Assembly (NCBI GenBank): GCA_902622245.1
Contig: CACNPC010000004.1
Coordinates: 62,001-126,000, forward strand
DNA length: 64,000 bases
Source: an uncultured Pelagibacteraceae bacterium
GTDB lineage: Bacteria > Pseudomonadota > Alphaproteobacteria > Pelagibacterales > Pelagibacteraceae
Reading direction: 5' to 3'
Shown one piece after another: positions 29,596-47,817 of the stretch. Position 1 is the first letter of the stretch; every line of letters starts with the position of its first letter. A program made the translations under genes and the position numbers. Under the pieces are notes generated by a model. That model did no database searches, had not been told where the DNA came from, and worked only from the letters and a program-made list of their open reading frames with translations.

Positions 29596-32196
29596 ATGAC
29601 AAATTTTTCTGAAACTGAATTAATCCCATTCGCACTTAGGATAATTAAAAATCATAATGATGGAATTAATACAAAAAATCTAATTGCAAGTTTAAGGCAT
29701 GATATGCAGCCAAATGGTGAAGATTTGGAAATATTAAAAAATAGGTCTGATGATAAATTTAGTCAAAAAGTTAGAAATCTTAAATCACATAGGACTTTAG
29801 AAAATGAAGGCTATGCAGATTTTATTGTAGATAAATTTTATATTTCTCAAGCTGGTTTAGATTTCTTAAGTGATTTAAATCAAAATGATTTCTTTTCAAT
29901 ATTGAAAAAACAAAAGACTATATTGCCAAGAGAAGAAATATTAGATTTGAAAATAAGTTTGAATTTGGAATTATCTGCAAGAACTATAAATACTCTTATT
30001 AAAAATGAAATTTTTACTATTAGAGATCTATTAGAATGGGATGAAAAAAAACTTATATCTATACCTGGTTTTGGAAGAAAAAGTTTAAATGAAATTAATA
30101 ATTTTTTAGATTATTACAAATTAAAATTTATAGAAAAAAATAATGATGACAATTTAGACATTTACATTAAAGAAAAAAAATTTTTAGATTTGGAAACTAT
30201 TTCTATAAATATTTTAACAGAATGGCCTCTATCAGTAAGAACATTTAATGCTTTAAAACAACAAAATATAATTTTTCTTGGAGATTTATTGTCTTACAAT
30301 GAAAATTCTTTACTTAAACTAAAAAATTTTGGCAGAAAATCATTAAAAGAAATTCATGAATTATTCCAAAGATTTAACATCGATAAGGATATATATAATT
30401 ATGATTTATCTAATTGGGAAAATTTAAGATATCAATTAATAATCAATCAAAAAAAACATAAAATAAATCAAAACAAAAAAAATTTAACTGGACTAAATAA
30501 ATCTATCTTTAAAGACTTTGAAAAATTCAAAGAAAAATTTTATGAAACTGAAAAATTAATAATAAATAAAAATATTGAGCCAACTGAATTAGAAAAACTA
30601 ATTTTAGATGACATCGAATTAATTATTTCCCTGCTAACTGATAGAATGGTTATATTTTTTACTGGTAGATATGGTTACAAAGAAAATTATAAAACTCTTG
30701 ATGAGTTGGGGAAAAAATTTAGTGTAACTAGAGAAAGAGTTAGACAGCTTGAGAAAAATTTAAATTTTTCATTGGTAAAACTTGGAAAAATTGAAAAAAA
30801 ATCATTAGTTAAGTTTTTTGATAAATATGAATATGTAAGTTTTCATAAGCTTTTTCCAACATTGGATAAAAACTTTACTGATACCGCTCGAGGCACAACC
30901 GAAATTACTAGAGATAAATTGGTAATATTTATGGAATATTTTTGTGGAGTTGATCAAGAATATTTTAAAACACCCGAAAGAGAACTTTGGCACTTCGATA
31001 TAGAAAAACTCTCTGAAATTTTTACAGTTATTCCAAGCGGAATATCTAAAGATAATTTTGTTGAAGTAGTAAAAGAAAATTTTGGATACAACAGTTTCGT
31101 TTCTAAATCTGCAATTGAATTTATGATTAAAAAAAAACTTATAAAAATACATGAAGAAAAAATTTATCCATTAAAAATGAGAAAAAATTTAGAGGTAACT
31201 CATATTTTAGTCTCTTATCCCAAAGGATTGCATTGGAGAAAAATTGCAGAAATAGGAAATAAATCATTTACATCAAATAATTGGGATTTAAGCAGAATTG
31301 TCGGCGACTCATCATTAAATATGATTTCAAATCAAAATATTTATTTATGTGAGAGGGGAACATATAAGCTGTTTAGAAGATGTCCTGAAATTAAAAATAA
31401 AGACGAAATTATAAATTTTTTTATCAAATATCTTAAAGAGAATAATGCTGAACAATCTCCAATGGAACCTGTTTTTAAAGAAATAATTAAATTAACACAA
31501 TTTAAAGATTTAAATTTTTATGACGCAAGAGCAATCATAAAAAAATTTGGCAACGAAGAAGGATTGTTTCATAAAGGTACCTCAGGAACAAATACAGTTA
31601 GTTTAAATAAAAAAATCAAATTGGTGTCACTTAAAGATAAAATAAGAGAGATTATCTCTAGCACATCAGAAGAGGTAAACCTTAAAGATATTATAAATAA
31701 ATTACAGAAAACTAATGAAGATATACCTGTCGATCTTCATTTAGGTGACCTTGTTGACAATATGGAAATATTTAGAATTAGCCCTGGAACATTTTTAAAT
31801 TTTGAAGATGGACTAAAACTCTGTGACAAAGATGATGTAAATTTTGTTTTAGATAAATTATTAGATAAATATGAGTTTATAACTAATGGTTTTATGAGAG
31901 AAAAAATTAATGATGAATTAGGATTTAATTTATCCAATTTCTATTATGACACTCTTTCAAGAATATTAGCAAAAGAAAATAACTGGTTTTATGGTTCAAA
32001 TTACTTAAGTAAAAAAAAAGAAAAAGTAATAAGTGTCCAAGAGTATATAAAACAACAATATGATGATAATTTAAGTAAAAATGAGAATTATGAAAATATC
32101 ACAAAAAAAATAGGTATTTCAAAAATGTATTTTGATAATATAGTATATCAATCAATAAATAATTTTAACACTGATTGGATACACAAAGATGACTAA
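29596..32196 (+). CDS. 866-aa protein with two RNAP alpha-CTD-like repeats and a sigma region-4-like HTH
   Basis: Domains in order are as follows. First comes a winged-helix-like N-terminus (about 5-95). Two helix-hairpin-helix repeats like the RNA polymerase alpha C-terminal domain follow at about 122-172 (LSARTINTLIKNEIFTIRDL, IPGFGRKSLNEINNFL) and 205-258 (LSVRTFNALKQQNIIFLGDL, NFGRKSLKEIHELF). A sigma-70 region-4-like block lies at about 353-390 (FFTGRYGYKENYKTLDELGK then FSVTRERVRQLEKN). The long C-terminal half has a HARE-HTH-like segment (THILVSYPKGLHWRKIAEIG). All recognised parts bind DNA or polymerase, and no nuclease motif is seen. It overlaps the MORC-like ATPase gene by 8 nt, so it belongs to that system. 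Its role could be DNA targeting or transcription control. Confidence 0.75.
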   Translation: MTNFSETELIPFALRIIKNHNDGINTKNLIASLRHDMQPNGEDLEILKNRSDDKFSQKVRNLKSHRTLENEGYADFIVDKFYISQAGLDFLSDLNQNDFFSILKKQKTILPREEILDLKISLNLELSARTINTLIKNEIFTIRDLLEWDEKKLISIPGFGRKSLNEINNFLDYYKLKFIEKNNDDNLDIYIKEKKFLDLETISINILTEWPLSVRTFNALKQQNIIFLGDLLSYNENSLLKLKNFGRKSLKEIHELFQRFNIDKDIYNYDLSNWENLRYQLIINQKKHKINQNKKNLTGLNKSIFKDFEKFKEKFYETEKLIINKNIEPTELEKLILDDIELIISLLTDRMVIFFTGRYGYKENYKTLDELGKKFSVTRERVRQLEKNLNFSLVKLGKIEKKSLVKFFDKYEYVSFHKLFPTLDKNFTDTARGTTEITRDKLVIFMEYFCGVDQEYFKTPERELWHFDIEKLSEIFTVIPSGISKDNFVEVVKENFGYNSFVSKSAIEFMIKKKLIKIHEEKIYPLKMRKNLEVTHILVSYPKGLHWRKIAEIGNKSFTSNNWDLSRIVGDSSLNMISNQNIYLCERGTYKLFRRCPEIKNKDEIINFFIKYLKENNAEQSPMEPVFKEIIKLTQFKDLNFYDARAIIKKFGNEEGLFHKGTSGTNTVSLNKKIKLVSLKDKIREIISSTSEEVNLKDIINKLQKTNEDIPVDLHLGDLVDNMEIFRISPGTFLNFEDGLKLCDKDDVNFVLDKLLDKYEFITNGFMREKINDELGFNLSNFYYDTLSRILAKENNWFYGSNYLSKKKEKVISVQEYIKQQYDDNLSKNENYENITKKIGISKMYFDNIVYQSINNFNTDWIHKDD

Positions 32197-38739: not shown

Positions 38740-39423
38740 ATGAAGTGGAACAGAAAATTTAATTATCCAACATCTACAAGAGCTCTTTATAATGGTAAAC
38801 GTCTATATGATGTTAATAATGAAAAATTACCATCCGTCACAACAATACTCGCTGCCACAAAGCCACAAGAAGAAATAGATTCTTTAAATAGATGGCGTGA
38901 AAAAGTAGGCCACAAACAAGCAGATATAATTTCAAGAGAAGCCACTGAGCGTGGTTCTAGCATGCACGATTACATTGAAAAATTCTTGTTAGGAAAACTT
39001 AATCTTGATTTATTAGGAGATAACACAAGAGAAAGAATGATGGCAGATCAGATTATTGAGAATGGTTTGAGAAATAGACTTCAAGAAATATGGGGCTGCG
39101 AATCAACTTTATATTATCCTGGAAAATACGCTGGTGCTGCAGATTGTATTGGTGTTTATGAAAATTATCAAAGTCTTATTGATTTCAAACAATCGAATAA
39201 ACCACGAAAACATGAATGGAATACTACATATTATATGCAATTGGGTGCTTATTCACTTGCTCATAACACTGTCTATGGAACCCATATAAATCAAGGGGTT
39301 ATATTAGTTTGTACAAAAGATAATACTTTTCAAAGATTCGTAATTTATGGTGATGAGCTTAAAGAATATCAAAATAAGTTTTTGGAAAGAGTAGAACAAT
39401 ATTATTCACAAAAAAAAATTTAA
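38740..39423 (+). CDS. phage-like PD-(D/E)XK exonuclease (MGME1-like)
   Basis: The 227-residue protein begins NRKFNYPTSTRALYNGKRLY and contains LPSVTTILAATKP, EATERGSSMHDYIE and the nuclease core YAGAADCIGVY followed by SLIDFKQSNKPRKHEW, then YYMQLGAY. The Asp plus D-F-K pair is the metal/catalytic pattern of the RecB-like family that includes MGME1. The SVTTIL...RWREKVG layout is typical of exonucleases in T4-like cyanophages, which suggests phage origin. The family call is by recall of that layout. Confidence 0.72.
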   Translation: MKWNRKFNYPTSTRALYNGKRLYDVNNEKLPSVTTILAATKPQEEIDSLNRWREKVGHKQADIISREATERGSSMHDYIEKFLLGKLNLDLLGDNTRERMMADQIIENGLRNRLQEIWGCESTLYYPGKYAGAADCIGVYENYQSLIDFKQSNKPRKHEWNTTYYMQLGAYSLAHNTVYGTHINQGVILVCTKDNTFQRFVIYGDELKEYQNKFLERVEQYYSQKKI

Positions 39424-39431
39424 ATTTTTTA

Positions 39432-39460
39432 TTGACTTTAAAAATTACGTAATATATAGT
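39432..39460 (+). promoter_or_regulatory. sigma-70-type promoter for the rmuC operon
   Basis: TTGACT (39432-39437) and TATAGT (39455-39460) are separated by exactly 17 nt, close to the -35/-10 consensus. Transcription would begin near 39467, giving a leader of about 175 nt before the rmuC ATG at 39644. The same leader contains the repeated hairpins noted separately. Confidence 0.65.
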
Positions 39461-39479
39461 TTATACACTAAATAAATTA

Positions 39480-39617
39480 GTACTTGTTTAGATCTAGTGA
39501 AATTTAGTCCTTTCTTTTCATTCAATCTAAACAACCTAATTTATTTTAAACGAAGGTACTAGTTTAGATCCTGAGTTATCCTTTCTACTCGCTTTCTAAA
39601 CTCATATTTAAACTAGT
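39480..39617 (+). repeat. leader with tandem hairpin repeats and alternative pairings
   Basis: A 15-nt unit (GTACTTGTTTAGATC at 39480-39494) recurs with one mismatch at 39556-39570. Each copy starts a hairpin. TTGTTTAGAT (39484-39493) pairs with ATCTAAACAA (39525-39534), and AGTTTAGA (39561-39568) pairs with TCTAAACT (39595-39602). Both loops contain TCCTTTCT. The second unit's ACTAGTTTA (39558-39566) can instead pair with TAAACTAGT (39609-39617), which excludes the second hairpin. It lies downstream of a good promoter and just upstream of rmuC, with AGAGGAAAAG as ribosome-binding site. Confidence 0.55.
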
Positions 39618-39643
39618 CCTCGTTAACAAAAAAAGAGGAAAAG

Positions 39644-40540
39644 ATGTTTGAATATTTAATAATTGGCGGTTTAGCTGTTGTAGTAATCTTTGCTTTTTTG
39701 ATTTATCAAAAAATAGGCTCAAAAAACAAGGAAAATACTGATGAAATCGGTCTTAGCGATATCAAAGAGAGGCTAGGGAATATTGAAAATGCCCAACAAG
39801 CAATCGAGAAATTAAACGAAAAAATCATAGATTTTGAAAATATTTTCAACAATAAGACTAAAAGAGGAAAGCTTGGAGAGGAGTATTTAGAAGAAATTGT
39901 CAAAGATACATTAGTTGCAAAACATCATTCATTTCAACACACCTTATCAAATAATAAACGAGTAGATTGTCTATTAACTTTCGGTACAACAAATGAAAAT
40001 ATTTGTATCGACTCAAAGTTTGTTTGGGATAATTATGAAAAATATTTTAAAGAAACTGATGAGGATAAAAAAACTCAATATCTTAAAGAATTTGAAAAAG
40101 ATTTAAATAATCATATTAAAGCAATATCAGAAAAATACATTGTTACAGGAGAAACCGCTCAATTAGCAATTATGTTTATAGGTTCTGAGGGTGTTTTTAG
40201 AGCCATTGAGGACATATCTGAGGATTTTATTAAGGAAGCACGTAAGAAAAATGTGATCATTGCTTCGCCAAATACACTATGGGCATTCTTGAGAACTTAC
40301 AAATTACTTATTCAAAACAGAGAAATGTATGAGCAAACTCATGTTATCCAAAAAGAAGTTTCAGAATTATCAAAAGTTATTAATGCTTTTGAAAAAGGTT
40401 TTAAAGATTTAGAAAATAGACATAATAAAAATTCTGAAACAATCCAGGATTTAAAAACTTCGGTAAGTAAAATTACAAATACTTCACAGAAAATACAAAA
40501 CCTAGACTTAGAAAATAAAAAAACAGGAGAACAGAAATAA
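39644..40540 (+). CDS. rmuC: RmuC-like DNA recombination/nuclease protein
   Basis: The 298-residue protein has an N-terminal membrane helix (YLIIGGLAVVVIFAFLIYQK), a coiled coil, the RmuC domain starting KRGKLGEEYLEEIVKDTL with NNKRVDCLLTFG and ICIDSKFVWDNYEKYF (PD-(D/E)XK-like Asp...D-S-K), and a C-terminal coiled coil. RmuC limits recombination at inverted repeats and has been linked to defence. It is shorter than the E. coli protein. Its TAA shares a base with the next ATG. Confidence 0.82.
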   Translation: MFEYLIIGGLAVVVIFAFLIYQKIGSKNKENTDEIGLSDIKERLGNIENAQQAIEKLNEKIIDFENIFNNKTKRGKLGEEYLEEIVKDTLVAKHHSFQHTLSNNKRVDCLLTFGTTNENICIDSKFVWDNYEKYFKETDEDKKTQYLKEFEKDLNNHIKAISEKYIVTGETAQLAIMFIGSEGVFRAIEDISEDFIKEARKKNVIIASPNTLWAFLRTYKLLIQNREMYEQTHVIQKEVSELSKVINAFEKGFKDLENRHNKNSETIQDLKTSVSKITNTSQKIQNLDLENKKTGEQK

Positions 40541-41979
40541 TGAATTATGTAATATGGGATGTAGAGACAGATAGTGCTGATACTAATTATGCAACTATAA
40601 TTGAAATTGGTGCGTTACTTTTAGATGAAAATTTCAGAGAAAAAGAGAGGTTTAGTGCACGATGTAGAATCCCTCAAGATCGTGTTCCTTCCGCAACAGC
40701 TTTATGTGTTAACCGTTCAAGTATTGATTTACTTACAAAACAAAATCTTAGTCATTATCAGATGCTTAATCAAATTGAAGCTAAATTCAAAGAATGGTCT
40801 CCTGCAACTTTCCTAGGGTACAGTTCAATTAATTTTGACGATGAAGTGATAAGGAAAGAATTTTTTAAAACTTTAAGAGAACCTTACATTACAAATACAA
40901 AAGGAAATGTTAGACATGATGCTTTAAATATTGTTAGAGCTGCTTTTGCAGTTAATCCAGATGTTTTAAATACTGAATTAAATCAGAAAGGAAATATTTC
41001 AATGAAGTTAGAGTCTCTTGGAAGAATGAATGGATACGATACAGAAGCAGCACACTCAGCTTTATTTGACAGTGAACTTTGTGGGAAAATACTTTCAGAG
41101 ATAAAAAAAAAGCAAACTAATCTTTGGGACGATTATTTAAGAACGAGTAGTAAACAATCTGTTGAAGAAATAATCAAAAATGAAACAATTTTAACAATTA
41201 ACGAATACTTTTATTCACGAAGTCGTCTTTATCTAGTCGCACCTCTTCATCCAAGCAACTGTATACATCCAGTTTATAAATGGGGCCAGGCCGTTGATAT
41301 TAGGATAGATGTGGAACCATTATTTAAACTTTCTTATCAAGAACTTAAGAAAGAAATGCTAAAGACGCCAAAATTTTTGCGGACGATCCGGTCTAACAAA
41401 GCGCCGATTATAATTGATGCAAGTTACGGAATGAAAGTTGAACCATATAATGCAATTGGTCCTGAATTGTTAAGGAAGAGAGCTGAGATGGTCAAATCAA
41501 ATGCTAAGTTTGCTCAAGATGTATGTAATATTTTAAAAGAAAATGCAGAGGAAAAAATGCAAACATCATCACAAGAAGACATAGAACCTGAAGAGAGTAT
41601 CTACAGCAAGTTTGCAACAGATAAAGATAAATTTTTATTTCCAAAATTTCATGCAGCAGATTGGAAAGAAAAATTCTCAATGTTAGAGAAATTTGAAGAT
41701 CAAAGAATGAAATATTTTGGTGAAAAATTAATATTTAATGAAGCCCCAGAAATTCTTCCTGAGACCACTCAAAAAAAAATAAAAAAACAAATTAAAGATA
41801 GATTATTTTCTATGAATAAAGAGAAATGGCTTACACTTCCTGCAGCAGAAAATGAAATTGATAACTTGAGAGAAAATAAGCAACTATTTTCATTCAAATC
41901 AGAAGAAGAAAAATTAAATTTTTTAGAAGATATAGATAAATATTATAAATTTTTAAGAGACAAATATGAGAGCGCTTAA
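40540..41979 (+). CDS. exodeoxyribonuclease I-like 3'-5' exonuclease (DEDDh)
   Basis: This 479-residue protein matches ExoI (SbcB) in length and domain order. The exonuclease I residues are WDVETDSAD (Asp7, Glu9), exonuclease II is SINFDDEVIRKEFF, and exonuclease III is TEAAHSALFDSELC (His and Asp). A C-terminal helical/SH3-like part follows, with WGQAVDIRIDVEPLF. ExoI degrades single-stranded DNA from the 3' end. It is co-transcribed with rmuC. The first motif differs from the YDYETFG seen in E. coli ExoI, so I leave out the symbol. Confidence 0.8.
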   Translation: MNYVIWDVETDSADTNYATIIEIGALLLDENFREKERFSARCRIPQDRVPSATALCVNRSSIDLLTKQNLSHYQMLNQIEAKFKEWSPATFLGYSSINFDDEVIRKEFFKTLREPYITNTKGNVRHDALNIVRAAFAVNPDVLNTELNQKGNISMKLESLGRMNGYDTEAAHSALFDSELCGKILSEIKKKQTNLWDDYLRTSSKQSVEEIIKNETILTINEYFYSRSRLYLVAPLHPSNCIHPVYKWGQAVDIRIDVEPLFKLSYQELKKEMLKTPKFLRTIRSNKAPIIIDASYGMKVEPYNAIGPELLRKRAEMVKSNAKFAQDVCNILKENAEEKMQTSSQEDIEPEESIYSKFATDKDKFLFPKFHAADWKEKFSMLEKFEDQRMKYFGEKLIFNEAPEILPETTQKKIKKQIKDRLFSMNKEKWLTLPAAENEIDNLRENKQLFSFKSEEEKLNFLEDIDKYYKFLRDKYESA

Positions 41980-41981
41980 AT

Positions 41982-42416
41982 ATGATTAAAAAAATTTTTA
42001 AATTATTCAAAAAGAAAACAAAATTTAAAAAAAAGATTGAGAAAGGTAATAAGGCAGAAGTAATCAATTTTATTAATAAGTCAAAAAAAAATAACAAAAT
42101 TCAAACAAATGCCGATGAAGCAAGGAAAATGGATAATCTTGCTCAAGAATTAGTAGAAAACTACTTGAGAGCATCTAGAAAAAGCTTTTTAGATATGGGA
42201 TATTGTTTTTACTTATTTTTATTTAGGGTTTTACAAAGAATGATTTTTCAATTTAGTTACCCAGTTTACAGACATTATCTAAAAGCAACATGTAAAGAAA
42301 TTTTAAACAACCATAAAGAATGGCTTCATGAGTTCAAAGAATGGGATAAGGCACCTACGGAAGGCAATCTAATTGGAGAGAAAAAAAAGGATAGTGACAA
42401 CGATACTTTACACTAA
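41982..42416 (+). CDS. hypothetical protein, 144 aa
   Basis: No family is recognised. The N-terminus is strongly basic (MIKKIFKLFKKKTKFKKKIE). A helical middle follows, including an aromatic, moderately hydrophobic stretch at about 70-93 (GYCFYLFLFRVLQRMIFQFS), and the tail is acidic (DSDNDTLH). It starts 2 nt after the ExoI-like gene and ends 3 nt before the giant LRR gene, so it is part of that operon. Confidence 0.6.
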   Translation: MIKKIFKLFKKKTKFKKKIEKGNKAEVINFINKSKKNNKIQTNADEARKMDNLAQELVENYLRASRKSFLDMGYCFYLFLFRVLQRMIFQFSYPVYRHYLKATCKEILNNHKEWLHEFKEWDKAPTEGNLIGEKKKDSDNDTLH

Positions 42417-42419
42417 AAT

Positions 42420-45400
42420 ATGAAAAAAAATAAAGATCCATATCCTATTACAGATGTATATCATGTAACTGATACATTGGTAGATGGTGCAACAGTAGTT
42501 GTAACTGATCTTTGCGATAATCTTTCAAATAATATTGATACAGACACTGAGAATATTTTAAGTGATACAAAACAAATAAATTCAAAAAAATTTAATTCCA
42601 TTTCAGTTTCAAATGGAGCAGATGGTGCATATCCTGTTTGGTTAGGAGTTGATAAAAATAATAAAGTTAGAAAAATATTTGCCGAAACATCTGGTGGAAG
42701 TTTTGCATGGGGTGAAAAACACAAAACCCTTGTGTCTTGGAGTTGGAACAAAGAAGACATGAATGATCAATTTTTCACCAAAGGAAAGATTGATAAAAAA
42801 GTTAAAAGAGAAAAACTTTTTGATATGAAAGTAACCTCAGGTGCAATAGCAGTTGCCGACCACGGTGGAAATTTTAGATTTGAACATCATGAAATTTTAA
42901 ATGAATCTTTAGATGATAAATATTTTAAAAAAGAAAACATTTTTCAAAATAATTATCCAATTGGATTATTTAAATTTAAATATGGTGCTGAAGCTAAATC
43001 AGAAACTTCATCATTCGCAACTTCCTCTATGCATGACGATAAGGTTTTTCATTTAAATGAATACAGAAATAGAACTTATGTTGAGTTTCTAAGCAACCTA
43101 TTAGATGATACCTGTTACCCTACTAAATATATTTTTGAAGAATACCTAGAAGAAACATTGGGATATAGAGATATTGTCGAATTAAAAGTAAATGATAAAA
43201 AAATTTCAGCAAATTATTTATCTGACAGGCTTCCAAAGGCATTACAAATTTTAAGAAAACAAACAAAAATATTATTTAAAGACAATTTTAAAGAAGTTTA
43301 CGAAATAAGAAAAAATCAATTTGAAAATCTAATATTTACAATAATAAGAGACATTGAACCTCAAGAATTAGACCTACCAAGTTTTGGAAAGAAAAAGCCG
43401 AAAAAAAATGAAAAAAAGGTTGAGAACAAACTAACTGTCGAAACAGGTGGTCTACCTTACATTCAAGAAACTTTTTACAATGGTTTTAAACTTAAAGAAG
43501 AACCAACTCTAGAACACTCAGTTACAATTCCAATTAAAAATGGAAATTACCCCTGCTATGTACATTCGTATCCTGATAAAAGTGATGATGAATATGATTT
43601 TAATTATGTAAAAATAGTAGTCGAGGGGATTGAAGGTTGTTATTTAAGCCGAGATCAAAAAGGAAAATTAGTTTTTAATAAAAGACAAAAAGAGAGCTCC
43701 TTCATTAAAGAACATATAAAAAATAAATCTAAAACTATTTCATTAGATCAAATTGTACTTAGAAATTCAGAAAATTTAGACGAATTAAGCAGGATTGATT
43801 TTGTAGAAGAATTAGAATTGCATGGATTAAAAAATATTAAAAATTGGAACGGTCTATCTAAGTTAAAAAATCTCAAAACATTGAAATTAGTTTCATGTGA
43901 AATTCAAAGTGACCAAAGTGAAAATTTTTTTAAAAATCTTTACTCTTTAAAAAATTTAATAAAATTTTCAATTGATGATAGCTGTTCTTTATCATTACCT
44001 AAAAAGAAATTATCTAATAATTTATATTTTAAGAAACTAAAATTATTTGAAATTGATTTCAGAAAAGATTGGAAAAAAAACACCAGTGAAACTAAACCAG
44101 ACCATCAAGGTTATGGTAATGAAAATTTATATTTCTTAAATTTTTATCTCTTAAATATTTCCAATTTTCCAAATTTTGAAAAATTTAAAAGTTTAGAAAT
44201 AATAAACCTTTATAATATTTTTGATGAAGACGAACCAAATGGTAATTTATTTGGTTATAGATATGGATTAAGTACATTTGAAAAAATTGGTAAACTTATT
44301 AAGAATTCAAAAAATTTAAAAGAAGTTTGGCTACACGGTTTCAAATTTCAAGGTGATATTAGCTTATATTCAAACAGAGTATCCAGGTGTTTAAATGCAT
44401 TAAATACAAAAAAAAATATATTAATTAATGGAAAAAAAATACAAGAAAATAAAATTAATTTTAAAGATGTAAATTCAATAGAACTCATCAGTAAAGTCGA
44501 GGAGTATCATAATTCTAAGATAATTTCTTTTGAAAAAGATAAACTTACTCTTAGTTATTTTTCAATTTTATCGGATGAAAATAAAGATTTCCAAAAAAAA
44601 ATATTTAAACAAAAGCCTGAGGAAATAATAATAAATCCAACCTATCAATTTGTTAGAAGTGAAATGATGTATGGAGATACATTTAAACCATTTAATAAAC
44701 ACGTTTCTCAAAACAAAAATTTAAAAAGGCTATTTTTTAAATTTGATAACAAAATTGTCGATGATGATTGGGGAGATCTTGCTGGGTCTTGGTCTGAATG
44801 GGAGTGCAGAAGTTTTTGTCAGTATATAAATGATCTCCTAATATTAAATAAAAATTTAAAAATTTTCATAGATATTCCCAATCTTAATGAGGAATTAAAA
44901 GATCTTGAAAATATCTCAAAATATATCTTGTTGTTTGAGTATTCTATAATTTTAAGTGAGAAAAAAGAGACACGTAACAGATTAATATTTAAGCAATTAC
45001 TTAATAAAGAAGTTAAACAAATAATTGATAAATACTTATTAGAAGTAGTGGATACTTTAGTTGTAATTGAGGATAATTACGGATGGAACGACTCTACCAG
45101 TGTAAGAAATATTGAATTTTTAGATAGGTTTCAGTTTGAAGACGCTAGCCCATTTAAAATTAACATAAATACTAAGTCAATTAATCTTAGTTATGATGGA
45201 GAAAAGCCGTATGAAAAAGAAAGTAGATTTTTACAAGAAATGTTTGAGGATGATTTCTGGACTTATTCAGATGCAAAATTTTATCACTTTCTAAATGATA
45301 AAATCGAGGGAAATAGCTATGATAAACCAATAATTTTAGTTAAACAAAAATATCTAGATCAATTAAAAACAACAATTTTTAAAAATATTAAACACTACTT

Positions 45401-46709
45401 TTATTTTGCAAAAGCCGACTATCGCTTTGATGATTATGATAACGTTCTTTACAAAAAATTTTGGAAAGAAAAAGAAATATTCACACTACCTCAATCTATA
45501 AAGTTTAAAAATTTGGAAACATTAAATATTATAGGTGGAAGAGATGTAAATTTAAAAAAACTATCTCAAGAAATAGATTTTACAAAAATTAAACAAATAA
45601 TATTAGAGTCGTGTGTAGGGTCGGTTAGAGACTTTCCATATTGCCCTAATTTAAAGACTTTAATTATTACTGATAGATATTGTGCAAAAGCTAAAAATTA
45701 TTCTAATTTTAAAAATTTACCTTCTTTAGAACATTTAGAATTCAAAAGCTTATTCAATTATAATGATGGTAGCTCAAGATGGTGTACCACAGAGTTTGAT
45801 TTTACAGATATTTACAAATTATCGAAATTGAAATTCTTAAAATTAAACCAATTAAATCCCGAATATTTACCACCCTTAAAAACTCTAAAAAATCTAGAAG
45901 ATCTAAATTTATCTTTTAAACTCATTACTGGCGATATGGGATCTGATGATGGAATAATTAATGAAAATATAAGAGATAAAGATTTTGAGTTTTTAAAAAA
46001 TTTAAATAATTTAAAATCAATAAGCATTGAATTACCTTTAGATCATTCGAGTGTAAAAGGTGAGCAATTAATTTCCTATATTAATTCAAATATTGAAGTT
46101 TTGGACTTAGAAGCTCAATACGATGATGCTGAAATACAACTAGCCTATCAAACTATAAATAAAATTATTAAAAGATTTAAAAATCTTAAAAAAATAAAAT
46201 TAGAACTTAGCAGAAATAATAACTTCGAGTCTAATGATAAAGAAAAAATAATATATTTTAGAAAAACAGGAGAAAGATGGAAAGAAGGAAATAGCCCAAG
46301 ACCGTTTATATTGGATTTTAATAATTTCTGTAAATTGAAATATTTAACAGATATTACCTTTAGTCAATTGTACAGAGATGAGATGGGATTTAAAATTAAA
46401 AACCCAAGATCAATAACAAAAATGAAAAATATTAAAAAAATAAATATAAAAAAAGAAAAATTTAAAACAGAAGACCTGCAATATATAAGATCTATCACTT
46501 TAAATCCTAGAGATAATTTTTTAAAAGAATGTCAGAAAAAAGATAAATCAATTAAAAGTGAATATGATTTAAATGAAAAAGATAAGAAAAAATATGATAA
46601 GTTAAATAGAGAAATTAAATTTGATGGTTCAGATTGGAACTGGTCAGGTGATACAATTGACGAAATATTAAAAGAAAGAAAAAAGAAAAAAAGTGAAACA
46701 GCAAATTAA
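42420..46709 (+). CDS. giant leucine-rich-repeat protein with DUF4241-like N-terminus, 1429 aa
   Basis: The N-terminal region has NGADGAYPVWLG (65-76) and TSGAIAVADHGG (139-150), a layout like the DUF4241 family (SGxGDGxYPVY, then a DPxx-type strand). A related block, IPIKNGNYPCYVHSYP, lies near residue 372. Irregular leucine-rich repeats follow from about 440 (VEELELHGLKNIKNWNGLSK, LKNLKTLKLVSCEI) and again from about 1030 to the end (NLETLNIIG, KLKFLKLNQL, NLEDLNLSFKL). No signal peptide or membrane helix is seen, so it is probably cytosolic. It overlaps the DUF2130 gene by 17 nt. Function is unknown. A sensor or scaffold role is a guess. Confidence 0.65.
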   Translation: MKKNKDPYPITDVYHVTDTLVDGATVVVTDLCDNLSNNIDTDTENILSDTKQINSKKFNSISVSNGADGAYPVWLGVDKNNKVRKIFAETSGGSFAWGEKHKTLVSWSWNKEDMNDQFFTKGKIDKKVKREKLFDMKVTSGAIAVADHGGNFRFEHHEILNESLDDKYFKKENIFQNNYPIGLFKFKYGAEAKSETSSFATSSMHDDKVFHLNEYRNRTYVEFLSNLLDDTCYPTKYIFEEYLEETLGYRDIVELKVNDKKISANYLSDRLPKALQILRKQTKILFKDNFKEVYEIRKNQFENLIFTIIRDIEPQELDLPSFGKKKPKKNEKKVENKLTVETGGLPYIQETFYNGFKLKEEPTLEHSVTIPIKNGNYPCYVHSYPDKSDDEYDFNYVKIVVEGIEGCYLSRDQKGKLVFNKRQKESSFIKEHIKNKSKTISLDQIVLRNSENLDELSRIDFVEELELHGLKNIKNWNGLSKLKNLKTLKLVSCEIQSDQSENFFKNLYSLKNLIKFSIDDSCSLSLPKKKLSNNLYFKKLKLFEIDFRKDWKKNTSETKPDHQGYGNENLYFLNFYLLNISNFPNFEKFKSLEIINLYNIFDEDEPNGNLFGYRYGLSTFEKIGKLIKNSKNLKEVWLHGFKFQGDISLYSNRVSRCLNALNTKKNILINGKKIQENKINFKDVNSIELISKVEEYHNSKIISFEKDKLTLSYFSILSDENKDFQKKIFKQKPEEIIINPTYQFVRSEMMYGDTFKPFNKHVSQNKNLKRLFFKFDNKIVDDDWGDLAGSWSEWECRSFCQYINDLLILNKNLKIFIDIPNLNEELKDLENISKYILLFEYSIILSEKKETRNRLIFKQLLNKEVKQIIDKYLLEVVDTLVVIEDNYGWNDSTSVRNIEFLDRFQFEDASPFKININTKSINLSYDGEKPYEKESRFLQEMFEDDFWTYSDAKFYHFLNDKIEGNSYDKPIILVKQKYLDQLKTTIFKNIKHYFYFAKADYRFDDYDNVLYKKFWKEKEIFTLPQSIKFKNLETLNIIGGRDVNLKKLSQEIDFTKIKQIILESCVGSVRDFPYCPNLKTLIITDRYCAKAKNYSNFKNLPSLEHLEFKSLFNYNDGSSRWCTTEFDFTDIYKLSKLKFLKLNQLNPEYLPPLKTLKNLEDLNLSFKLITGDMGSDDGIINENIRDKDFEFLKNLNNLKSISIELPLDHSSVKGEQLISYINSNIEVLDLEAQYDDAEIQLAYQTINKIIKRFKNLKKIKLELSRNNNFESNDKEKIIYFRKTGERWKEGNSPRPFILDFNNFCKLKYLTDITFSQLYRDEMGFKIKNPRSITKMKNIKKINIKKEKFKTEDLQYIRSITLNPRDNFLKECQKKDKSIKSEYDLNEKDKKKYDKLNREIKFDGSDWNWSGDTIDEILKERKKKKSETAN

Positions 46710-47817
46710 GTGTCCACATTGTAATAAATTTTTTCCTCTTGAAGAAAGTTTAAAACAAGAAACTGAAGAATTGAGAAAGAAACTAAGAGCAGAAGAAAAA
46801 GAAAAATCTAAGGAAAGGGAAAAAGAACTTGAGGGCAAACTTAATCTTAAACTTGAAAAACAACAGGCAGAGCATGAAAAACAGCTCAAAAAAATAAAAA
46901 TAGAGGAAGAGAAAAAGATAAAAGATGAAGCAAAAAAACAGGCAGAACAAGATATAAAAAAAATTAAAAAAGAAGCTGAAGATAAAGCTAAAGAAGCAAA
47001 GTTAGAGGTAGAGAGAAAAGCTCAAAAAGATAATGCTGTTCTGAAAGAAAAACTTCTTAAGCAGGAATTAGCTCACCAAAAAGATATTGAGAGATTAAGA
47101 ACCAAAGCAGAAGAAGCAGCACGTGCTGCTAGCCAATCGCCTGTTGAGAGAAAAGGCGAGGTTCAAGAAGATTTATTAGAGGATTATTTAAAGAAAGAAT
47201 TTCCTTATGATAATTTTGAACCTGTAAAAAAAGGAAAAAGGGGAGCAGATGTAATTCAATTTGTTCAAAATAAAAATAATGACACCGTTGGTAAAATACT
47301 ACACGAGAGTAAAGATGTCTTAAACTTTGATGAAAAGTGGGTCAGTAAATTATTAGATGATATGACTAACGAGAATGCAACAATTGGCGTTATTTATACT
47401 AAGGCTATGCCAAAAAAATCAAATGGTTTAGTTGACGAAAGAGAAGGAGGAAGAATTCTTATTTGTGCAGAACTTCCAATAATTAGGCAGATGGTTTCCA
47501 TTCATAGAAAACTAATAGAACAAATACAGCAAAATAAACTTAGTAAAGGGGATGCAACTTCAAAGTTACAGAATCTTTATAATTATTTAAACGGAAACGA
47601 ATTTAAACTTCAATATAGAAAAACAATGAATGGACTTCGTAAAGAAGGATTACAGATAGATAAAGACGAAAGATCATACACAACTCAAATAAAGACTAGA
47701 AAATTGAATTTTGAGGATAATAAAAAAAATATAAATTCAATCATCACTTCAATTCTATCTAATAGTGAATTGTCAGATGATTTATTAGATGGCGGAGATG
47801 ATCCGATGTTGGAATAG
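46693..47817 (+). CDS. DUF2130 coiled-coil protein
   Basis: The start is GTG at 46693 (MKQQIKCPHCNKFF, a single CxxC). A long charged coiled coil covers about 15-150. The conserved DUF2130 (PF09903) core follows: SPVERKGEVQEDLLEDYLKK, KGKRGADVIQFVQ, HESKDVLNFDEKWVSKL, and GVIYTKAMPK. The core resembles PD-(D/E)XK nucleases (Asp in GADV, then E-S-K), which would suit a nuclease, but activity is unproven. It is the last island gene, 11 nt before recJ. Confidence 0.82.
   Translation: MKQQIKCPHCNKFFPLEESLKQETEELRKKLRAEEKEKSKEREKELEGKLNLKLEKQQAEHEKQLKKIKIEEEKKIKDEAKKQAEQDIKKIKKEAEDKAKEAKLEVERKAQKDNAVLKEKLLKQELAHQKDIERLRTKAEEAARAASQSPVERKGEVQEDLLEDYLKKEFPYDNFEPVKKGKRGADVIQFVQNKNNDTVGKILHESKDVLNFDEKWVSKLLDDMTNENATIGVIYTKAMPKKSNGLVDEREGGRILICAELPIIRQMVSIHRKLIEQIQQNKLSKGDATSKLQNLYNYLNGNEFKLQYRKTMNGLRKEGLQIDKDERSYTTQIKTRKLNFEDNKKNINSIITSILSNSELSDDLLDGGDDPMLE

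Follow-up and report, generated by a model that had tools for sequence, protein, structure and literature searches.

Phage coat-protein operators, boxB, and the ANTAR dual hexaloop hairpins are protein-binding RNA hairpins that work as translational operators or antiterminators. In type III toxin-antitoxin systems (ToxIN), the RNA is a series of tandem repeat hairpins that stands upstream of a gene. The element described here lies in a 64,000-nt stretch of DNA from an uncultured Pelagibacteraceae bacterium (the window), in the leader of a run of nuclease genes. Like the coat-protein operators, boxB, and the ANTAR hairpins, it combines a conserved loop with a stem of free sequence, and it is positioned in mRNA leaders; as in ANTAR, it can occur in tandem. 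It differs from these in that the core is 13 nt long (rather than 3-6 nt), that it occurs in a host nuclease leader as well as in virus mRNAs, and that there is no terminator. Unlike in ToxIN, no toxin gene is recognized here, the units are spaced 72-79 nt apart, and single-unit forms are common; the next gene is rmuC, sbcB, orf144, or orf101 (the last of which lies outside the domain scan). The combination of a conserved loop and a covarying stem, by which a protein-binding RNA hairpin operator may be judged, is found in the viral set described below; on the host side, support for the compact form of such a hairpin comes from the closing pairs only.

Structured leader motifs have been described in Pelagibacter (rpsB, rpsL, ffh, SAM-V, and others; PMC2704228), and these are likewise conserved structured SAR11 leaders. 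We did not find the present motif described there, and the words rmuC, hisG, and tandem are absent from the main text. We also did not find it in print, as far as literature listings and the opening parts of abstracts go, or in Rfam 15. At gathering and at loose thresholds, Rfam 15 returned nothing relevant for the window, nine viral loci, and six host loci; in the window, it gave only three tRNAs at gathering and a single chance-level snoRNA match over the leader.

A tandem hairpin leader upstream of rmuC

The leader follows a gene for a PD-(D/E)XK exonuclease (pddexk; 38740-39423, forward strand, like the leader and the genes that follow it), which was assigned to phrog_298 by family matches and has relatives in 328 of 399 genomes of the genus. 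The near-consensus promoter that was proposed from the sequence alone is present (39432-39460), with TTGACT at 39432-39437, a spacer of 17 nt, and TATAGT at 39455-39460. The first gene past the leader is rmuC (39644-40540; PF02646, E 5.5e-48), followed by the gene of an SbcB-like exonuclease (40540-41979; PF08411; PADLOC RTasSbcB, DEDDh) and then, based on open frames and a domain search, by orf144, a 1429-aa LRR-like protein, and a DUF2130 protein (41982-47817). Judging from their spacing, these genes probably share one transcript. orf144 has no Pfam match, and the LRR-like protein (42420-46709) matches no Pfam family above the curated cut-off. The SbcB-like and RmuC proteins match reverse-transcriptase-associated PADLOC models (RTasSbcB and RTasRmuC, respectively); no reverse transcriptase was found among the classified neighbor genes of the leader. 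The surrounding region (27178-49514) is a variable island that extends from hisG to a gene whose product has a Mur-ligase C-terminal match slightly below cut-off, and its gene set is defence-like. It includes a Z1-domain protein (PADLOC Helicase_II, E 2.6e-42; MzaC, 2e-22), a DUF4420 PD-(D/E)XK protein, a HATPase, and, ~7 kb upstream of the leader, a protein with RNA polymerase alpha-CTD / sigma-70 region 4 similarity (29596-32196) and weak PglW and MzaA matches.

Two similar units, each starting GTACTxGTTTAGATC, had been noticed from the sequence, and we find them at 39480 and 39556, 76 nt apart. The 212-nt stretch that contains them has a predicted folding energy of -47.6 kcal/mol, as compared with -27.6 +/- 3.6 kcal/mol for 200 dinucleotide shuffles (z -5.48, with 0 of 200 as good), and the predicted fold consists of two long hairpins. 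In the first (39470-39546; folds and covariation), the 13-nt invariant core of unit 1, TACTTGTTTAGAT (39481-39493, with closing pairs AG/CT by sequence comparison), is buried by an antisense arm, ATCTAAACAA, at 39525-39534; for a stretch in L026 that is identical to unit 1, the antisense-arm test gives p=0.007. The predicted compact form of the same unit (39467-39508) has an outer stem ACTAAAT/ATTTAGT, an inner stem ATTAG/CTAGT, and the core as its loop. The second long hairpin (39549-39624) pairs the region of the unit 2 core, TACTAGTTTAGAT (39557-39569, with closing pairs GG/CC by sequence comparison and fold), with the antisense arm ATTTAAACTAGT at 39606-39617 (antisense-arm p=0.003).

The sequence-only reading had placed TCCTTTCT in the loops and had proposed mutually exclusive pairings. 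The former holds for both apical loops of the window and fails, by eye, in diverged homologues such as G012. As to the latter, competing pairings do exist, but the specific one that was named lacks conservation, and its partners had been garbled. The main stem pairs ACTAGTTTA with TAAACTAGT; the competitor is TCTAAACT (39595-39602), which by eye is missing in several homologues (G012, G213, and the G053 type). A different alternative pairing is possible within 39617-39639, where TCCTC, located at 39617-39621 in the 3' base of hairpin 2, is complementary either to its own stem partner or to GAGGA (39635-39639) of the ribosome-binding site. By eye, several two-unit leaders seem to have similar complementarity. 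Hairpin 2 is followed by A-rich sequence, CGTTAACAAAAAAAGAGG, and not by a U-tract, so the leader is not a classical terminator attenuator, which had been one of the initial suggestions.

Two-unit leaders in related genomes

A DNA search of 200 relatives gave four strong matches (G071, G059, G053, and G012, with E 1.7e-12 or better). In a pattern search of the 399 genus genomes, 12 had matches, and nine two-unit leaders (including that of the window) were retained once three genomes had been dropped (G283, G246, and G363; open frames of 231-570 codons contain their matches as well as that in L121, which was likewise dropped). A strictly filtered covariance-model search had matches in 6 of 397 genomes of the family, of which G791 was new, and three near-identical two-unit leaders occur on SAG contigs (L026-L028). 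Across these 13 leaders, the core-to-core spacing is 72-79 nt, and each unit keeps an almost constant 5' strand that resembles GSTACTWGTTTAGAYSC.

Compensatory changes, which the sequence-only reading had called for, are present. When ten two-unit leaders are aligned to the model, 91.0% of cells are paired and 17 of 52 pairs have changed on both sides, with a covariation score of 0.277 (0.134 for shuffled alignments, 0 of 500 as high; slid versions reach at most 0.088), figures that come from an alignment fitted to the structure and including four near-identical leaders. Related sequences are not independent, and the shuffle-based numbers, here and below, are optimistic. The double changes fall mostly in hairpin 1, where 10 of the 11 pairs of the lower stem have them, as compared with 3 of 24 pairs for hairpin 2. 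The count covers 10 of the 13 leaders and leaves out G073, G053, and G285, because the model (R1) loses diverged leaders (in its search, G073 has E 0.0043, G053 has E 0.11, and G285 is unlisted).

The two-unit leader precedes rmuC in the window, G012, and G379, and sbcB in G059, G071, and G213. Elsewhere it is directly 3' of hisG, before orf101 (G053, G073, and G285) or orf144 (G791). G073 carries, in addition to its two-unit leader after hisG, a separate one-unit copy between pddexk and sbcB (L049:10634-10732). The two-unit form of the window is the rarer variant of the element, as the following counts indicate.

The core at the nuclease locus across Pelagibacter

The invariant part of each unit is the 13-nt core UACUNGUUUAGAY with complementary closing pairs, which vary by lineage (GC/GC, AG/CT, or GG/CC) yet remain complementary. 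A search of SAR11 and phage genomes had been recommended from the outset, and when it was run the motif proved to be present in many Pelagibacter genomes as well as in viral contigs. The 17-mer GCTACTWGTTTAGATGC, which is the core with GC/GC closing pairs, was found with at most one mismatch in 107 of 399 Pelagibacter genomes (one match for the reversed-pattern control), a count that leaves out the window's own variant with its other closing pairs and may include some one-mismatch matches that lie elsewhere. As 101 of the 107 carrier genomes have a single match, tandem copies are not essential. The picture of a structured leader with tandem units and competing pairings ahead of a nuclease operon is supported by the covariation and by the arm complementary to the core in many host units (see below). 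Without mismatch, GCTACTNGTTTAGAYGC occurs in 28 of 117 genus genomes, in 0 of 27 genomes from other genera of the family, and in 0 of 53 genomes from another family of the order.

The element stands at a nuclease locus (PD-(D/E)XK / SbcB-like / RmuC) in 29 of the 30 loci fetched from the 17-mer scan, and in 43 of 44 when the loci from both scans are pooled; the exception, L121, is inside an open frame of 280 codons. The nearest upstream gene is pddexk in 41 and hisG in two of the 44 loci, and the nearest downstream gene is sbcB in 34, rmuC in seven, and orf101 in two. The same genes can also adjoin directly: the pddexk-sbcB gap (between BLAST ends) is 3-9 nt, with no leader, in 31 of 37 loci, 29 of which were chosen as closest pddexk matches and not at random, with two genomes counted twice. 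That many Pelagibacter run the same genes without a leader counts against an RNA regulatory reading.

We sought a regulon of the 17-mer in the window's own genome. At up to three mismatches there are 26 matches, both leader copies included, as compared with 15 for the reversed control, and outside the leader there is no copy with fewer than two mismatches; those beyond the leader all have at least two. A reading in which an upstream peptide is encoded was set aside, given that, by eye, the frame is not preserved from one locus to the next.

The core as the apical loop of viral hairpins

In IMG/VR, mRNA-sense hairpins whose stems vary widely carry the 13-mer TACTNGTTTAGAY as their apical loop. 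The viral counts that follow derive from scans that include one of CTACTTGTTTAGATG and apply among the matches listed. There were 236 distinct contexts in 338 viral loci, and, with open frames set at 120 codons, stems of at least 6 bp were found in 23 of 85 contexts outside such frames and in 2 of 151 inside. The stems are 6-15 bp long; with one or two closing pairs specified in each scan, there is some search bias toward the innermost pairs and none for the outer ones. In 17 distinct hairpins among these matches, 94.6% of cells pair and 9 of 12 pairs have changed on both sides, giving a covariation score of 0.558 (0.128 when shuffled, 0 of 500 as high; at most 0.120 for slid versions). In 25 of the 27 hairpin contigs from the matches listed, which include near-duplicates, the nearest downstream ORF shares the strand of the hairpin. 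A relative of the window's PD-(D/E)XK gene occurs in 7 of 30 hairpin contigs and in 4 of 308 other viral loci among the matches listed (Fisher p 5.6e-6, optimistic owing to near-duplicate contigs). We call the hairpin contigs pelagiphage-like because the terminase of one of them (L165) shares 74-75% identity with its counterparts in Pelagibacter phage HTVC027P and phage 023Pt_psg01. A BLAST search of one viral hairpin against INPHARED gave 13 records, with a 17-letter match in each at E 5, which we took as chance.

Cultured pelagiphages offer a further comparison. The terminases of HTVC027P, HTVC023P, and 023Pt_psg01 are 62-75% identical to that of L165 over ~85% of its length, and all three phages encode a relative of the window exonuclease (43-46% identity). 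In the stretches compared (not whole genomes), they have no core-like site (at most two mismatches) in a stem of more than 1 bp, and HTVC033P has no core in a stem within the 6 kb read. The gene at L165:4683-5291 stands downstream of the L165 hairpin. Upstream of its homologue, HTVC027P (L492, minus strand) carries a 9-bp hairpin whose 13-nt loop is a different one, and 023Pt_psg01 (L493) a 12-bp hairpin with a 20-nt loop. The recorded host of HTVC027P is HTCC1062. The 13-nt loop of this phage, which differs from the core though placed upstream of a shared gene, is absent from three of three near-complete Pelagibacter genomes searched. As the same stretch of HTVC027P holds other hairpins of at least 9 bp, this loop may be a coincidence. 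The phage loops may be host-specific, or the hairpins with other loops may be coincidental.

Alternative folds in host leaders

Host elements commonly have, downstream, an arm that is complementary to the core. Of 46 distinct units, 30 have an arm better than expected at p<=0.05, including 12 at p<=0.01, and the other 16 are above p 0.05. Among the viral matches listed, 1 of 17 hairpins has such an arm at p<=0.05 (tested with a slightly shorter arm, beyond the stem). An unpaired core costs at least 3.9 kcal/mol in 39 of 47 host units and at most 2.4 kcal/mol in the other 8 of 47. Given these eight and the 16 units that miss p<=0.05, a two-state picture is not valid everywhere. By eye, the host arm usually leaves a short bulge and does not rebuild the 17-mer.

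For the compact host form, the outer stem is no better than shuffles (p<=0.05 in 1 of 45 and in 0 of 11 units), and in many host copies only two closing pairs hold the hairpin. Because of this failure of the outer stem and the small number of closing pairs, the case for the compact form is made by homology to the viral loops and by the closing-pair changes. From the modeled folds, it appears that in many host elements the core can be enclosed in a long, briefly bulged hairpin, and that the viral hairpins would present it permanently.

Regulatory interpretation and competing explanations

The reading that we favor, at a probability of roughly 0.6, is that the element is a cis-regulatory RNA hairpin that is bound by a putative trans-acting factor and controls nuclease expression, that pelagiphages carry a locked form of it, and that the window has a tandem form. 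The factor, most likely an RNA-binding protein, would recognize the core hairpin, and in host leaders its binding would compete with the long hairpin in which the core is enclosed. The resulting shift of fold would change ribosome access to, or the stability of, the sbcB/rmuC mRNA. In the window, the freed 3' base of hairpin 2 (TCCTC) could cover the ribosome-binding site.

Of the competing explanations, the one that survives best, though we consider it improbable, is that the 17-mer is a DNA operator, a dyad-symmetric repressor site just past the promoter, with incidental hairpins. In 42 of 44 loci, the distance from the start of TTGAC down to the 17-mer is 38-47 nt, and in 28 it is 46 nt (background 1.75% per 17-nt window), a placement that counts for the RNA leader reading as well and would suit a site tied to a promoter; in many loci TTGAC overlaps the pddexk stop codon (by eye), so its conservation may be partly protein-coding. 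The sequence is almost absolutely conserved and contains a partial dyad (GCnnCT-N5-AGnnGC), which would be expected of a DNA operator too and would count against the RNA reading, and the island has the alpha-CTD / sigma-70 region 4 protein ~7 kb upstream. However, the 6-15 bp viral stems covary and mostly follow same-strand ORFs, neither of which a double-stranded operator needs, and the long hairpins of the two-unit leaders covary as well. The host antisense arm, with its short bulge, usually does not restore the 17-mer (by eye). Finally, there is no HTH domain in the classifiable flanking genes (orf144 and the LRR protein being without a match above cut-off).

Slightly less probable again is a hairpin for mRNA processing or stability, with no switch, for example a cleavage site for RNase III or RNase E, or a protector of the 3' end of the upstream gene. 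The nearest upstream ORF in the 27 viral hairpin contigs (among the matches listed) is on the same strand in 21, on the opposite strand in three, and not found in three, and in those 21 of 27 the distance from its end to the inner closing pairs is 15-36 nt, which speaks for such a hairpin, as do the long imperfect duplexes of the host leader. Such a role is possible particularly in viruses. It is rare for a processing site to keep a 13-nt loop constant while its stem changes in sequence, and this is the pattern seen here; moreover, the host copies follow a promoter-like sequence of their own.

A riboswitch or a type III RNA antitoxin, as the sequence-only reading had suggested, is very unlikely. 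The tandem structured units in a long leader fit either, but a 13-nt loop on an arbitrary stem is small for a metabolite aptamer, no toxin gene was recognized adjoining the leader, most carrier genomes have one unit, and there is no Rfam match. That the element is a small mobile palindrome inserted between genes, as the same gap being filled or empty among relatives might suggest, is hardly credible when 101 of 107 genomes with a GC/GC-closed core have a single copy and the window's own genome has none with fewer than two mismatches outside the leader.

Returning to the regulatory RNA hairpin, the presence of the same loop in a host leader and in viral mRNAs suggests an RNA signal that is used by both host and virus and was not previously recognized. 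A more specific idea, which we regard as doubtful, is that the locked pelagiphage copy is a high-affinity hairpin that titrates or hijacks the host factor, by which the virus, while infecting, would shut down or commandeer the SAR11 exonucleases, with the loop as a possible host-matched address. SAR11 ranks with the most abundant groups of bacteria in the ocean, and to our knowledge few of its regulators are known. If the reading is true, a conserved RNA signal on a nuclease operon, present also in phages related to those of SAR11, would give concrete access to DNA metabolism in SAR11 and to how phage and host interact.
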